This document shows, one piece after another, positions 26,884 to 35,266 of a stretch of 64,000 bases of DNA. The DNA comes from Tubulanus polymorphus (taxonomy: Eukaryota > Nemertea > Palaeonemertea > Tubulaniformes > Tubulanidae), in NCBI RefSeq assembly GCF_964204645.1, contig NC_134029.1, positions 21,408,450-21,472,449 on the forward strand, given 5' to 3'. The notes beneath the pieces were generated by a model, which made no database searches, was not told the DNA's origin, and saw nothing but the letters and a program-made list of their open reading frames with translations. How positions within the stretch are numbered: the first letter of the stretch is position 1; the number at the start of each line of letters is the position of its first letter. The position numbers and the translations under genes were made by a program.

Positions 26884-29800
26884 ATGAGCGGGCAAAGCGC
26901 TCTGCGTATTTGGACGTGGATTTTTTGTTTGGTCTCCGCCGTCGGTGCCAAACAGAACAAAATTTTCGTTCAGATGCCAAATGTTCAACCGAAAGTGGTA
27001 AGTTTCAGCAGCTTACAGCCAGTATATTGTCCTCCTGTCGACCCCGCTACGACTTGAATACACTGCACACATGTCACTTGTTTTCATAACAGGTGTCTCA
27101 CTACATTGAATCTCATGTACATTATCTGAACAGGTGTCTGAAAGAAATATGAATTTTAAAAGAAATATACATAACATTATTTTTGCTTTTTTGATGGAGC
27201 TGTTTCCCCTATTCTGACGCCATTATTAAATAGAAATTAGATAGAAATTGTTGGTCTCGATAGAGGCCGTTGTTTAGGAGAGTTTGATGAACAATGACAT
27301 CATAAGTAAACATCTTAATTTCAATTATCAAGTTTGGTTTTGCAGTGAAATAGGTCGCTTCATAATTAGTCAGCAGTGAAAGCCAGCTAGGCGCGATGAC
27401 CAATTACCCTTAATATGTAAAGAAGACATCCTACTGATTACTAATCCATCACAAAAATTCATTTACTCATATAGATTAAGTTACAAATGTTTAATCATTT
27501 CGGAGGAACCATTTTCGGGGACACACTGTATTATAATGTTCACAAATTCGAATTTAAAAAAAAGTATATCTATTAGATTTTCTTGCCACAAAAATCTTAT
27601 CTAGGCAGTAAGCGAAATTCTCTCAGAGATCCTCTCACCCTGAGATCCTATTCACGCAATCTGATAAATTGATCGTGTTTTCCTCGGCCGAAAAGGACGG
27701 GTGCAACCGATGGATCTCACAAATGGATATTTGAGTAATTTTCAAAACGAATTACAAGATCTGTAGAATTTTATACGGAAATATGTATACAATTTCACGT
27801 AGATCAGTGTACAGCTGTGCTCTCCTTGCAGATACAGAAGATTTATGTTCAAAAAGGAACAATAAAAGCGATTTCAGTAGATACTCTACATAATGCGAGA
27901 AGATAAACTGAACTAAAAGAATATTTAGAATACATCATATCGGGATAATGTATATCGATGTATTTTTAGTATATCATTGACAACGTGACAAAAGGCACGG
28001 CAATATCATCGAAGCTGAGTGGGCGAATCGTGCCACGATTCTCTAACGACTGAGCTGACATTTTCTCGTATCACCGAGGAAAAAAACGGTCGCTATTGAA
28101 GAATAAACTAGGCCGAATTATATATTCTACGCGAATAAACCGATTATCATCTATTAAAACCAATCCTCTTAATAATCTTTTGAAATAGAGACTTCAAATT
28201 ACTTATTCATTCACCAGGCGGTTAAGTCATTTATCAATACAACGCCGGAATTATTAAACACTACTTCACGATGAAATTCTTGATGGAACACTCCGCGATG
28301 AAACGATTATACGGTACAATACACGACCAAAAAATAAAAAAGGATTTTTTTCGAGTTAAAGTTTAGAATACGTTGAAAATAAAATATAGCTTAAAGAAAA
28401 CCTTTCGGACTATTTTCATTTTCTGAATCGTGGGATTTTACAGTATTACATGTGATGAAAATGTTCCGCTTCCCCGGATGCACAAGCACTGGCGTGCGTT
28501 AAATTATGAGTTAACAATTGAAAATGAACTGATTCTAACTGAAATCCAACTGCACACTACCTACGAGCAATCATGATGATTGCTCGTAGACCCTGCCAAA
28601 CTGGGCATATTGGATACTTCAACATGCCACAGGTAGCAGGTCCTTGAATTGTTGATAATGGATGAATAGCTTCACACAAATATTGCTATAGATACGTAAT
28701 TAGATATTTATAACGTAATGAATTAATCCACGCTACAATGACGTTTCGACGTCGTTGCCATAGAAACAAGGTGCGCGAAAAGACGATGCTACAGCGTGGA
28801 GCAGACGTGGATACATTCTGTCACCTTATTACCGGGCATCAACGAATTTAATTATCACCGCTTTGAGAGAAATCCAAATTCCAGTAATCGGGATGTATAT
28901 ATGCGTCGCAGCACAAGTATCAATCCATTAAAACCTTGTCAATAAAGTTTCATTAATACATATATAATTCACACTTATCCATCGATCGATTTAACCTTGT
29001 TGACCTTAACCTTCGCCTGAATTGAAATTTCAGTTGAAGTGACAATCGATGAGATATCTTTGTTTTGTTCGTAGATGCCGTTTTCAATCAAATTTAAAAG
29101 TCAGATTTAATTTTGAAAGCATTCGTCTCTAACGCGCATCGAAATGTTGAGAGTCCTAAGCGTTTTTCTCGTATTTCGAGTATGCGGCGTTCCACCAGTC
29201 AGATAAAATTATATTCCTATCATCAATAATTCTGTAATGCGTTTTATGAACGTTGTTTCAGCATGATACATACATGTGTACTGCGATGAAAATGAACTCA
29301 ACTGAATATGTCGGTAGGTTTCAATACATCGATGATAATAACATCGATCCAATATCTTGTCAAATCATTTGTTTATTTTCTCCGATTCTTTTGAAATTTC
29401 GTAAATCAGTACGTTGAAGTATCTCATGATTACTCTATTATCTAGTGTCATTTACTCCGAAACAATCAAAACCACACACGGCGCATCACATGTTGTTATA
29501 TGGTTGCGAATCTCCAGGATTCAAAGATTCCTCATGGTAAGGAAATTACGCCATTTTCCTGTAACTATTTGCAGAAAAATTTTCCGAAGTCCTAAGACAA
29601 GAAATTGAAAGAAAATATGTTGAAAAACACAGAACAATTGTCTTCAAAATAATTTAGATTTAATTCATTGGATTCGATTTTTATTATTCAATCAGTGTAC
29701 CAATATCACGTTTAAATGGAAACAAACATTGAAATTCTGATTGATTTTCTAACCGTTTATACCAAAAAGCAAAGTCTTCGGATTCATAAGAAATTTTTTT

Positions 29801-32800
29801 GTCATTGATGTCATTCAGGGATTGCGGAGAAATGCATTCGGGTGATGGTAAAACCATGAGACAAGGCCCAACTTGTGCATCAGGAGCAAAGATCATTTAT
29901 GCCTGGGCAATGGAGGCGCCCAACCTTCAGCTACCGAAAGGTAATAGACCTCTCAGGAACCTAATCCAACCAGTCAATCTGATGTTTGAAACGCGTATAA
30001 GAATTGTTTTTTTAAATCTATATGTTCTTCTCAATTTCAGATGTCGGTTTTAAGATCGGCGGAGACAGTAAAATCAACTGGCTCGTTTTACAAATTCACT
30101 ACAAAGACGTAGATAGATTTGTCAGTAAGTCTTGAAATACTTCTCTCCTTTAAGACGATCTTTGAGACATGACTAAGTTGGTATTCACGATTTTTCCAAG
30201 TCACGTAGTCGGAAACTTTTAGTTGGATTATACCAAATTTATAGTTGATGCTATGTCTGAAATTGCCGTGCCGATCCTTTCTAATTACAGAGGGTGATAC
30301 GGATAATTCGGGATTAGAACTGCAACTCTCTCCGCAGCCGTAAGTTAAAATCTAATTAAATCGAGAGAAATGCATATTCATTTCTCCTGCGGGCGAAGAA
30401 CACGTTTCCACCACATCACTGCCAGTAATAGACCCGATAGCGCGGCGTATGACGAGTAGAGAATCAAATTAGATTCGATCCACGTCAAAAACTGCAATTC
30501 AAATAATACTTCATATCTCTTCTGCTACTTCATTTCGCAACGTAGGAAATCAATAGACTAGACGTATATGGCGTCCATACCTACATTATATTCATTTACG
30601 AAATCTTTCTAATTTTCTTACATCAAAAATATATATCGCTATGTATCATCTATATCAACTCTCCTGTGTAGAAAGCCTGTTATTAAATCAGTACACGATC
30701 GTTATATTTGCATGATAGAACACCTAAGAGTGCTGGAATTTATCTAATGTCCACAGTGGGGTCAATCGCCCCCAGGAGTACAGGTAAAATAACCACAACA
30801 TAATAACTGCGAACATGTATCTACGTTTATGTCTTTTTTGTGTAATATTAGTGTTTATGCATGAGGTATCTAAGAATACCTTGGTATTACCCGTCCCTCA
30901 GATGTAATCAAACACCTTCTAACTAGCTGTGGTAGTTTTTTGTCTATTTGTAAGAAGTCATTTTCAAATGCATAAAACATAATCCCACTACCAAAATTAC
31001 AACACAAAGCGTACGGTATACAAGAATTCAAATGCATAATTGAAAACCTAAAATGTCGGGCTAAAAAGTCGGGCTATATCTAAAACATGAAACATCGATA
31101 TTAGAACAGACATTAATAAAATAGTCAGCTGCATCTAAATAGGTTCATCATTGATATAGATCAAAATGAAATCAATTAGATATTAAACCAATGCGATATC
31201 CTATAGGAAAACTGACTCCACTGGTTACCGAGCACGTTGTCACAGTAATAGATATGGTCACGTAACTAAGGGTCGAATGAAAGCACCCAAAAATGTACAG
31301 AAATTATATCTTATCACAGATATACTCATGGCGTACATACATTTCATATCCATCATCTTGCGAATCATTTTTCTGTTTTATTCGTAACAGAACTCCGATG
31401 GTTGGTGGAATATACGTGATGTCCACCGGGGGAACGATAGCCCCTGAAAGTACCGGTATGGCCATGTGTTAACTGGGCTTTCAGTATAGATATTGTCAAC
31501 ACTTATATTGCAGCAGCATGAAATTACTTTGCCTGATGTGCAAATTATGGATTAGGGACAAATTTAGACACCATGGACAACTAATGATAAGCCCTCATAA
31601 AGCTAAAGCTAACCTTATTCACAGCGACAGAAAATAGGTACTTTTTATGAACCAACGGGGTATATATACTCATTGATATTTCAGTACTCCTAATGGTGCC
31701 GGTGTCATAGCAATGGGAACAAGCGGGGCGATCTCTGCTACATCAATTGGTATAATTTTAGAAAATCCGTTTCCCCTACAGTTTCTTTAGATATGTGAAC
31801 TGAAATTTGGGTGACGGACGTGAAATTGAATACTTTGGCAATCCGTTTCATGGTAAACGGGCTTCAGAACTCATATCTTGACTAAAATGCCTTTCTTTTC
31901 TAAAAACCTGAAAAATCCATACATGTTTGGATTCGTGGGGACGAATTCGCTTTGCTGTGTTGTGACCTATTCCCTTCAAGATTCCTCTAGGGTGACTGTT
32001 GTTTTGTTTTTCTTAATTGTTTTGTCGATCATACTGGTCCGTAGATATTCGAATGATCGTTATTTCACGTATTTTCATTCCTGGATATTTTTTGTCGTGA
32101 TGATATTCAATGTCTATTAATTTTGACTATTGTCTTGTCGTGTCAGAAATCACGTGTGTCCAGGATGTACACTTTTTCTATTTTTTGTGTTGTAAATCTG
32201 GAAATCTAAAATAAACAACTGCATGATTTCTCAAATATAGATAAACTGATACACGCAGATGTACTCATACGATTACCCCGATAATTATTATCTTTAGTTT
32301 ACATGGAGACGGCATGCAAATACAAAGACAAAATCGACATCTATCCATTTGCGTACAGGACCCATGCGCACAGTCACGGTAAGCGCATTATCCACATTTG
32401 ACGATCAAACATGAAATACACATTCATTGCAACATTTTTGGTAATTTGCTATCGCGTGAGAATCGATAATGAGAGAGAGAGAGTTCTCTATGATTATAGG
32501 CGTGGTCAATTCTGGATATCGAATACGTGATGGAAAATGGACGGAGATAGGTCGGAAATCACCGCAACAACCTCAGGTCGCTATCGTCTATAATCTGCCA
32601 CATCTCACCTCGTGTTTAAGAGTGATTAACGTGTTGATATTAACTCGAATAATTCATATGATTACAGATGTTTTATAAAGTGACCAATCCAGGCATGGAT
32701 GTGAAGAAAGGCGATATCTTAGTAAGTTCATGAATACTTGATAGACCATGGACGTTTAGATACGTCCATGGATGCTGTATTAATAAGACGAATGATTTCA

Positions 32801-33501
32801 TCGAGTAATTTACACTCATTCATTCTCATTTTAGGCGGCGAGATGCACCATGGTAAATAAAGATAACGAGGTTGTACAAATTGGGTAAGGAATAGAAATA
32901 TCGGATGATTCAGAACGGCAATATCGATGATATATCGTGCCAATTAGCAGATTCGTGCGCAATTTACATGAAACGTTTCTTTTTTACTTCCTCATCCTCC
33001 AGAGCACAAATCATTCTAGATTAGATTAGATAACCGTTTCGTATACAGCTTTTATGTATCGGCCTATAATGCTAATTGCATCTGTTCATTTTCAGTTCAA
33101 CGGCTAAAGATGAAATGTGTAACTTCTACATTATGTATTGGACACACGGGGATCATTTGCCTAGCGTGACTAACTGCTGGACGTTCGGACCGCCGCAGTG
33201 GAACTGGGGAAACTTCGAGGACCAGAGAGCCATCAATTTGAAAGCCGAACCGAAGACGGCCAGTACGGATCCGAATAGTCACCAGTCGTACAAACAGACC
33301 TCTCTATTGAAACAGATAATCAAGACGGCCGGTGCCCAGCAGACGACCGGCGATAACTCGGCTTACGAGTACTACAACGAGGTTCGTCCCGAAGATGAGC
33401 AGGAGATGCGCGATAGGATTCTCGCTGAACAATACGACCAACGATTCGAACCGGACGACGAGTATTCATTCCTCGGACAGTCAGATGCTTGGAACTACTA
33501 A
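26884..33501 (+). CDS. PHM: Peptidylglycine alpha-hydroxylating monooxygenase (PHM), no PAL domain
   Basis: Copper, ascorbate and O2-dependent enzyme of the secretory pathway that hydroxylates C-terminal glycine in the first step of neuropeptide amidation. Exons: 26884-26997, 29262-29313, 29446-29536, 29819-29940, 30041-30124, 30291-30339, one of three 65-nt exons (30719-30783, 31391-31455, 31685-31749), 32298-32378, 32500-32576, 32668-32721, 32835-32884, 33096-33501. Phases agree; product 414 residues. Signal peptide: LRIWTWIFCLVSAVGA. CuA ligands: HHM in TAHHMLLYGC and HY in LQIHYKD. CuB ligands: HAH in RTHAHSHG and Met in KDEMCNFYIMY. C-S pattern DCGEM...CASGAKIIYAWA fits the family. The last exon adds about 110 acidic, Gln/Asn-rich residues with no membrane segment, so the enzyme should be soluble. 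No lyase (PAL) domain follows, as in insects where PAL is a separate gene. Confidence 0.95.
28561..28589. repeat. 29-bp perfect hairpin
   Basis: CTACGAGCAATCAT, one G, then the exact reverse complement. In PHM intron 1. Confidence 0.8.
28739..28767. promoter_or_regulatory. CRE plus RFX X-box cluster in PHM intron 1
   Basis: TGACGT at 28739-28744 and CGACGTCG near 28748-28755 overlap or abut GTTGCCATAGAAAC (28754-28767), a near-consensus X-box. CRE next to X-box is a combination used by RFX/CREB-family regulators. Function is inferred from motif only. Confidence 0.45.
30719..30783 (+). CDS. PHM: PHM exon 7a (mutually exclusive)
   Basis: 65 nt, encodes KSAGIYLMSTVGSIAP after P-T-P. Aligns with the vertebrate PHM stretch around AGMYLMMSVDTVIP. 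Acceptor GATAG, donor CAG|GTAAAA. Closest of the three to the vertebrate sequence at the Y-L-M position. Confidence 0.88.
31391..31455 (+). CDS. PHM: PHM exon 7b (mutually exclusive)
   Basis: 65 nt, encodes MVGGIYVMSTGGTIAP after P-T-P; 10 of 16 positions agree with 7a. Acceptor AACAG, donor CCG|GTATGG. Same entry and exit phase as 7a. Confidence 0.88.
31685..31749 (+). CDS. PHM: PHM exon 7c (mutually exclusive, divergent)
   Basis: 65 nt, encodes NGAGVIAMGTSGAISA after P-T-P. The conserved Tyr is replaced by Ile and the Pro near the end is missing. Acceptor TTCAG, donor TTG|GTATAA. Splice sites are intact and no stop is present, so it looks like a live variant, though a decaying copy cannot be excluded. 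Confidence 0.8.
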
Positions 33502-35266
33502 AATCAAAATCACTCAAAATTTAAGTTATGGTTAGAATTAATCAAACACCTTTGACGAGGTTATCAGTCTCATTCGGCGTATTAGCTAGAATCTCTGCAA
33601 TTTGATCAACGATACATTGCTCAATTGAAAAGTCTCAATTAAAACGAAAATTCTAAAACTCCTCAATAGTTAATGATTGTTTACACGCAAACCACTGATA
33701 GATCTTAAAATAAGACGATATTTATCAATAACATCGCTTCAAATCCAGCGAATGTGACATAAATTCTTCTAATTAATGAAACATTCTATCTTCTGCCGTT
33801 GATTAATCTCCCTATAAATAAGTTATATAATATGTATCAGTTTCTTTGAATTCAACAAGTAATCCATGTTTGTTGTTGCTTTTTCGAAATGTGTTGTACC
33901 TAATTATAGTCAAATCACACACACACACAAAAACATATGATACAACTACAGGATCAAGGTCAATTTATCTAGATTTTATGTTCTTCGACCTTCGGTGAAG
34001 GTTGAAACACGTATCTAAGTACTTTGAATTTGTATACCATAGGTTATTTCAAAATCTCAATAAGTAAGGGTACAAAGTGTAAGATGTAAGACTTAAATGG
34101 CTTAGGACCGAATGGGCATTGATTCCAATTTGGACTAGTCCCATGTTTGTAATGCCCTCTGATTTGTACATAGCTGCTAAAGCTGATGTATATACGGTTT
34201 ATGGTAACGTTTTCTACGGAATGAGAACAATGAATACACGACAAAAATCCTAAAACTTTGATGATAATATTTCGGTATATTCCCATTGACCCGAGCAGTG
34301 AGTATTTGTGTTAAAACCTGTATATTGCCGCCCCACATGTATAAACTTGCATTTTAAAAAGCTGTGATCGATGTTCATCAGATACAAACGATGAAGCCCA
34401 TATAACGCAACATATTGTTGGGAAAACGGGGAATGAGTCTTGGGCAAATGAGATCATAACATGTTGTCAAAGATGGTGTTGTCAAACGTAATTAATGATC
34501 GTGAAATAATGTATTAATTATTTGTTAACTAAATTAATGTTATAAATAACACATGTAAATTATTGAATATGTGTGCAAAACCAGTGACTTCCGGTGAGGG
34601 ATAAGATTCGTTTGAGCTGGTAAATATAGGGGGAAATTTATCATTGTTTTGTTCTAATCAGGGAGGTGGTCCTCCCAATTGCTTCACGGGAGGTATCTTT
34701 TTTCTAATGTATGCGACACGCGTCCGCCTTTTGTCCATGGTAGTTCTGAAAATAATGGGGGAAGACAGCGAAAAACTGCGCAGGGGGTGGAAAAAACGGA
34801 TTGCAAACTTGAGGAATAAAAACAAGAATATGAAACATAGTTTCTGCACTGAATTATACCGTTTCGATATTTCATGGTAAGCGCTCTCCTTAAACCTTTG
34901 CGCGAAGAAAATAGAATCATTATCATCGAAATCAAAAACATTTATTGTGAAACGTTAATCCCTTTCTGTCAGGCATACATTTTTTTGATTGATTTATTTG
35001 AATTGTACTCTAAAATGTTCAACAATATTTCTAAACCATTGGATGAATAAGTCGGGTACGCTACGAAGGATAACGGCTGCTATTATGTAAATTACCGTGT
35101 GTATAATATCATTTTATTTTTGTCAAGTGAAAAATATATTTAAAAGATTACGATCACGATTTAGCGTCTCTGTTGATTTTGGATTCGGGTGGTACTGGCA
35201 TTTGCAAGCAAAATGATCGGCCCGAGGATATTTCCCATGGCAGCTGTGACTGACATTCAGTAACAT
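33502..35266. other. PHM 3' region and intergenic DNA
   Basis: AT-rich. An ACACAC run is at about 33919-33930. Open frames at 34044-34447 and 34644-34880 have no recognisable domain and no splice context. Nothing else is supported. Confidence 0.4.

Follow-up and report, generated by a model that had tools for sequence, protein, structure and literature searches.

Three tandem alternative exons, mutually exclusive by sequence evidence, in a predicted PHM gene of the nemertean Tubulanus polymorphus

The stretch of DNA analysed here, 64,000 nucleotides from the nemertean Tubulanus polymorphus (NC_134029.1, positions 21,408,450 to 21,472,449; henceforth the window), carries a predicted gene for a monofunctional peptidylglycine alpha-hydroxylating monooxygenase (PHM) in which one internal exon is present in three tandem versions, 7a, 7b, and 7c. 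By the evidence of their sequence these form a three-way, mutually exclusive cluster, a conclusion that we consider sound and that is apparently unreported. In the account that we favor on balance, exon 7 of the gene would have been duplicated twice, the copies would be spliced so that only one is used, the choice would tune the pocket of the enzyme, and factors of the RBFOX and CELF types would make it. The exons, in window positions, are these:

26884..26997, plus strand: PHM exon 1, signal peptide region (MSGQSALRIWTWIFCLVSAVGA...), from the uninterrupted 414-residue in-silico splice, with a presumptive start codon
29262..29313, plus strand: PHM exon 2, with HDTYMCTAM matching rat SDTYFCMSM; GT-AG borders
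29446..29536, plus strand: PHM exon 3, CuH ligands HH, from in-silico splicing and rat alignment
29819..29940, plus strand: PHM exon 4, from in-silico splicing
30041..30124, plus strand: PHM exon 5, third CuH ligand (H172 equivalent), from splicing and rat alignment
30291..30339, plus strand: PHM exon 6, ending in the interdomain linker (...LSPQP), from splicing, with the linker placed according to PMC10303134
30719..30783, plus strand: alternative exon 7a, 65 nt between AG and GT, 414-residue open frame when used alone
31391..31455, plus strand: alternative exon 7b, 65 nt between AG and GT, 414-residue open frame when used alone
31685..31749, plus strand: alternative exon 7c, 65 nt between AG and GT, 414-residue open frame when used alone
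32298..32378, plus strand: PHM exon 8, R240/H242/H244 equivalents, from splicing and rat alignment
32500..32576, plus strand: PHM exon 9, location of the stop codon when exon 7 is skipped, from in-silico splicing
32668..32721, plus strand: PHM exon 10, from in-silico splicing
32835..32884, plus strand: PHM exon 11, from in-silico splicing
33096..33501, plus strand: PHM exon 12, CuM ligand Met (M314), N316 and Y318 equivalents, and stop codon, from splicing and rat alignment

The gene is complete, extending from 26884 to 33501 on the plus strand, with twelve exon positions rebuilt, all with GT-AG borders. Its spliced product, 414 residues long, begins with a hydrophobic N-terminus resembling a signal peptide. 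That the gene encodes PHM had been claimed from the letters of the window, and the claim is upheld: the product matches PHM chains from solved structures at E 5e-44 (dopamine beta-hydroxylase, DBH, at 3e-9) and Pfam PF03712 at E 6e-37, and it is identical to rat PHM at 124 of the 272 aligned positions. The same alignment shows all six copper ligands (H107, H108, H172, H242, H244, and M314) to be kept, along with equivalents of R240, N316, Y318, Q170, and Q272, and every one of these residues is encoded by a constitutive exon. R240, N316, and Y318 are the residues of PHM that bind the peptide carboxylate. The gene does not encode a bifunctional PAM, as a stop codon lies at 33499-33501 and no PAL domain follows PHM.

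The genome (268 Mb) does possess a bifunctional PAM (PHM + PAL), 439 kb from the window gene and on the opposite strand (C5:21906800-21916700, here L014). Its PAL exons lie at C5:21.907-21.909M and its PHM exons in L014. There is also a separate PAL-like gene (C5:2013530-2014895). The segment of PAM homologous to exons 6 and 7 together is a single exon (L014:5167-5283, minus strand), and a search of this paralogue for a duplication of the exon 7 type found none. Since that segment sits in one unduplicated exon, the duplication is confined, within this genome, to the monofunctional PHM gene, and either PHM would have gained intron 6/7 or PAM would have lost it. Further copper type II monooxygenase (DBH/MOXD-like) genes stand in tandem clusters, four at C3:23388139-23430656 and about three at C4:1010737-1026990. 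Elsewhere in the window, an exon on the minus strand (positions 996-2402) codes for C2H2 zinc-finger sequence with long runs of glutamine and histidine.

The coordinates of 7a, 7b, and 7c in the sequence-only reading, their common length, their GT/AG sites, and their shared phases proved exact on re-checking. With slashes marking the borders, the exons run ...catgatag/AACACC..GTACAG/gtaaaa (7a), ...cgtaacag/AACTCC..GTACCG/gtatgg (7b), and ...atttcag/TACTCC..CAATTG/gtataa (7c). Each is entered after two bases of a codon (CC/N, proline) and left with one base of a codon (G/TT, valine). They encode the peptides TPKSAGIYLMSTVGSIAPRST (7a), TPMVGGIYVMSTGGTIAPEST (7b), and TPNGAGVIAMGTSGAISATSI (7c), of whose 21 residues 14 are shared by 7a and 7b, 9 by 7a and 7c, and 8 by 7b and 7c. 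The introns from exon 6 through exon 8 measure 379, 607, 229, and 548 nt and are unrelated to one another in sequence, which argues that the exons are old duplicates rather than an echo of assembly. Collapsed haplotypes or a misjoined paralogue would be hardly credible sources of the copies for further reasons as well: the exons differ by 33-52% of their nucleotides, and PAM, the only other PHM gene in the genome, is different in sequence and has no copies to contribute. We found nothing that supports such an artefact.

Are the three exons in fact homologous alternatives, as had been claimed? The introns downstream were dinucleotide-shuffled 2000 times, and the translations of all windows of the form AG-N65-GT in the shuffled sequences were scored against 7a with BLOSUM62. 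The best shuffled window scored 29, far below the scores of 7b (69) and 7c (44), so the claim of homology stands. A fourth copy was sought between exons 6 and 8 and is absent, the next best window scoring -3. The region thus holds a tandem array of homologous internal exons that agree in length and phase and have splice sites of their own.

All eight combinations in which 7a, 7b, and 7c may be included were spliced in silico. The inclusion of any one of them gives 414 residues and the normal stop, and this is the sole productive class. If exon 7 is skipped, a premature stop is read in exon 9; 7a joined to 7b stops within 7b, and either 7a or 7b joined to 7c stops within 7c. Messages with no copy, two copies, or three copies are therefore all non-productive in this analysis. 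It had been argued that exactly one copy must be chosen because 65 is not a multiple of three. The conclusion stands, since all other combinations stop, but the length argument does not suffice: triple inclusion adds 195 nt, a length that preserves the frame, and what rules it out is the stop read within 7b. Non-productive messages would presumably be degraded by nonsense-mediated decay, and perhaps the choice of exon acts mainly as an on/off switch, with skipped or doubled messages lowering the level of PHM. The premature stop does lie well upstream of the last junction in every combination other than single inclusion. For such a switch, however, one cassette exon would do, and three maintained, diverged coding versions would be superfluous, so we judge this explanation very unlikely.

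The copies appear to be maintained under constraint at the level of protein, judging from how they have diverged. Identity is higher at codon positions 1 and 2 than at position 3 in all three comparisons: 33/42 against 9/21 for 7a and 7b, 25/42 against 7/21 for 7a and 7c, and 24/42 against 6/21 for 7b and 7c (one-sided Fisher p of 0.006, 0.045, and 0.030, respectively). Ratios of dN/dS by the NG86 method are 0.09, 0.43, and 0.30 in the same order, to be read with the caution due to 63 nt and a dS near saturation. Together, the excess divergence at third positions and these ratios amount to moderate evidence of constraint, strongest for 7a and 7b. Exon 7c is the most divergent copy, and one might suppose that one of the exons, probably 7c, is a decaying, non-functional duplicate, leaving a two-way or a constitutive choice. 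Consistent with this, 7c has the weakest donor (TTG/gtataa, 4 of 9 consensus positions), and its score against rat is only 4, as against 39 for each of the other two. Yet its frame is open, its AG and GT are intact, its length is exactly 65 nt, and it shows the excess of third-position change relative to both 7a and 7b, even if the constraint behind that excess may sit mostly on those two. Decay of 7c is on these grounds unlikely.

Where in the enzyme does the exchanged segment fall? Exon 7 encodes 21 residues that align with residues 198-218 of rat PHM and begins the C-terminal (CuM) domain, directly behind the interdomain linker. According to PMC10303134, p.Arg190 and p.Pro192 (in human numbering) are variants of that linker; by sequence they are R195 and P197 of rat. 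The linker spans about R195-P199 of rat, and most of it comes from the end of exon 6, which is constitutive. The exons had been described as replacing the region that links the two copper domains. That is right insofar as exon 7 adjoins the linker, but most of the linker belongs to exon 6, and exon 7 starts the CuM domain. For this reason, a peptide-binding wall of the CuM domain is a better-supported guess at what is altered than the motion of the hinge or the handling of ascorbate.

The pattern of variation among the copies has a regularity of its own. Eight rat positions (198, 199, 203, 207, 209, 211, 213, and 217) are constant in all three versions, comprising 7 of 10 odd-numbered positions but only 1 of 11 even-numbered positions (Fisher p = 0.0075); every even position from 200 to 218 varies. 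This pattern would be expected of a beta-strand that has a fixed face and a variable one. On the variable face are position 206, which is Leu, Val, and Ala in 7a, 7b, and 7c, and position 208, which is Ser, Ser, and Gly (Met in rat). We take Leu206 and Met208 of rat PHM to border the pocket for the residue preceding the C-terminal glycine; a search of the open-access literature for a statement that they line this pocket found none. If the segment is a beta-strand placed in this way, with 206 and 208 facing the pocket, then the three isoforms may differ in preferred peptide, in affinity, or in turnover. That the variable face is the one bordering the substrate pocket is conjecture, as a face exposed to solvent would give much the same alternation. 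We therefore put forward only tentatively the more specific proposal of a splice-selected wall of the active site, by which the choice of 7a, 7b, or 7c would set which glycine-extended peptides are amidated and how efficiently. Substrate use by PHM is very broad, extending to amides of all 20 residues (PMC6123673), which leaves limited room for a change in specificity.

Mutually exclusive splicing could also be real and the isoforms differ not in the pocket but in stability, domain motion, secretion, or the binding of partners. The location of exon 7 immediately after the linker (PMC10303134) lends itself to this idea, as does the changed conformation of PHM mutated at a copper site, in which the domains hinge by about 18 degrees (PMC6123673). 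On the other hand, the linker is mostly constitutive, and the variation tracks one face of the presumed strand. We regard this alternative as possible, if somewhat doubtful, and continue to prefer the tuning of the pocket.

How might one exon of the three be chosen? Neither 7a (gtaaaa) nor 7c (gtataa) has a G at position +5 of its donor, and the pyrimidine tract of the 7a acceptor is poor. Exon 7b is the likely default, with 7a and 7c regulated. Motifs that might recruit regulators are found in and around the cluster, their function being presumed (by analogy with PMC3585155 in the case of the last two):

30709..30714, plus strand: UGCAUG (RBFOX-type) motif within the 3' splice site of 7a
30858..30863, plus strand: UGCAUG motif, 75 nt downstream of 7a
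32220..32225, plus strand: UGCAUG motif, 73 nt upstream of exon 8
31956..31963, plus strand: UGUGUUGU (CELF/UNC-75-like) motif in intron 7c-8
32186..32193, plus strand: UGUGUUGU (CELF/UNC-75-like) motif in intron 7c-8

Three of the ten sense-strand copies of UGCAUG in the 64-kb window fall within the 2-kb cluster (p about 0.01 against a shuffle mean of about 15 per strand, for motifs picked after looking), as do two of the four sense-strand copies of UGUGUUGU, likewise picked after looking. Trans-acting splicing factors of the RBFOX and CELF types, acting on weak sites, might then make the choice.

Other means of exclusion were considered. Steric interference between copies was rejected, the introns separating them (607 and 229 nt) being too long, and so was U2/U12 incompatibility, all borders being ordinary GT-AG with no U12 donor consensus. 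Competing RNA pairing between introns, which had been suggested as a check, was looked for without significant result: over six comparisons among the four introns, whole-intron duplex energies were within the range of shuffles, a measure that short elements could escape, and the best pair (introns 7b-7c with 7c-8, z = -2.2) is unconvincing for six comparisons. Short inverted repeats in the cluster look like chance. One, of 18 nt and 89% complementary, joins 30991-31008 (intron 7a-7b) to 32184-32201 (intron 7c-8); it would loop out 7b and 7c and overlaps an UGUGUUGU motif, and it too could be chance. An Rfam scan of 29000-34000 gave no match.

PHM has been regarded as broad and largely invariant, offering a single pocket to glycine-extended peptides of all sorts (PMC6123673). 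If the proposal put forward here is true, three maintained versions of one stretch of the catalytic core, with the rest held constant, would provide a natural experiment on the preferences of amidation. The amidating enzyme itself would join what neurons tune by splicing, and the amidated repertoire would be set partly by the splicing of a processing enzyme rather than of precursors.

Clusters in which one of several tandem duplicated exons is chosen are familiar from the docking-selector systems of Dscam and 14-3-3, from which PHM differs in that no significant pairing between introns was found. A closer parallel in regulation is unc-32 of C. elegans, which encodes a subunit of the V-ATPase, not the active site of an enzyme. 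It has a trio of mutually exclusive exons (4a-4c) and a pair (7a/7b), the latter governed by UGCAUG with ASD-1/FOX-1 and by UUGUUGUGUUGU with UNC-75; motifs of both types occur at PHM, where the likeness is at the level of motifs alone, whereas the regulation of unc-32 has been tested by experiment (PMC3585155).

The diversity of PHM described earlier arises from duplicated domains, paralogues, and splicing of the linker (PMC6669573), and we found no report among open-access papers of mutually exclusive or duplicated exons in its catalytic core. PAM of Lymnaea stagnalis has four PHM domains, produced by whole-domain duplication and released by proteolysis (PMC6669573). As would be the case with 7a-7c, several PHM isoenzymes come from one gene, but in Lymnaea without a choice of exons. 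Splice forms of rat PAM alter linker and topology, and the diversity of PAM, PHMm, and PALm in scorpions is one of paralogues, a dual system resembling the bifunctional PAM, monofunctional PHM, and PAL-like gene of this genome (PMC6669573). Unlike 7a-7c, neither alters the catalytic core through the choice of an exon.

For that, the nearest precedents are other enzymes. The alternative oxidase of Crassostrea virginica is also an oxidoreductase with a tandem duplicated exon (exon 10), one copy being conserved and the other changed around functional sites; there the exons are two, chosen by 3' alternative splicing and proven by mRNA, whereas those of PHM are three, internal, and enforced by frame (PMC5589949). 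In the polyprenyltransferase COQ-2 of helminths, annelids, and molluscs, exons 6a and 6e are mutually exclusive and switch substrate (PMC7434440). COQ-2 again has two exons, tested through transcripts and exon removal, and PHM three, proposed from sequence, but mutually exclusive internal exons remodel the core of the enzyme in COQ-2 and would do so in PHM.
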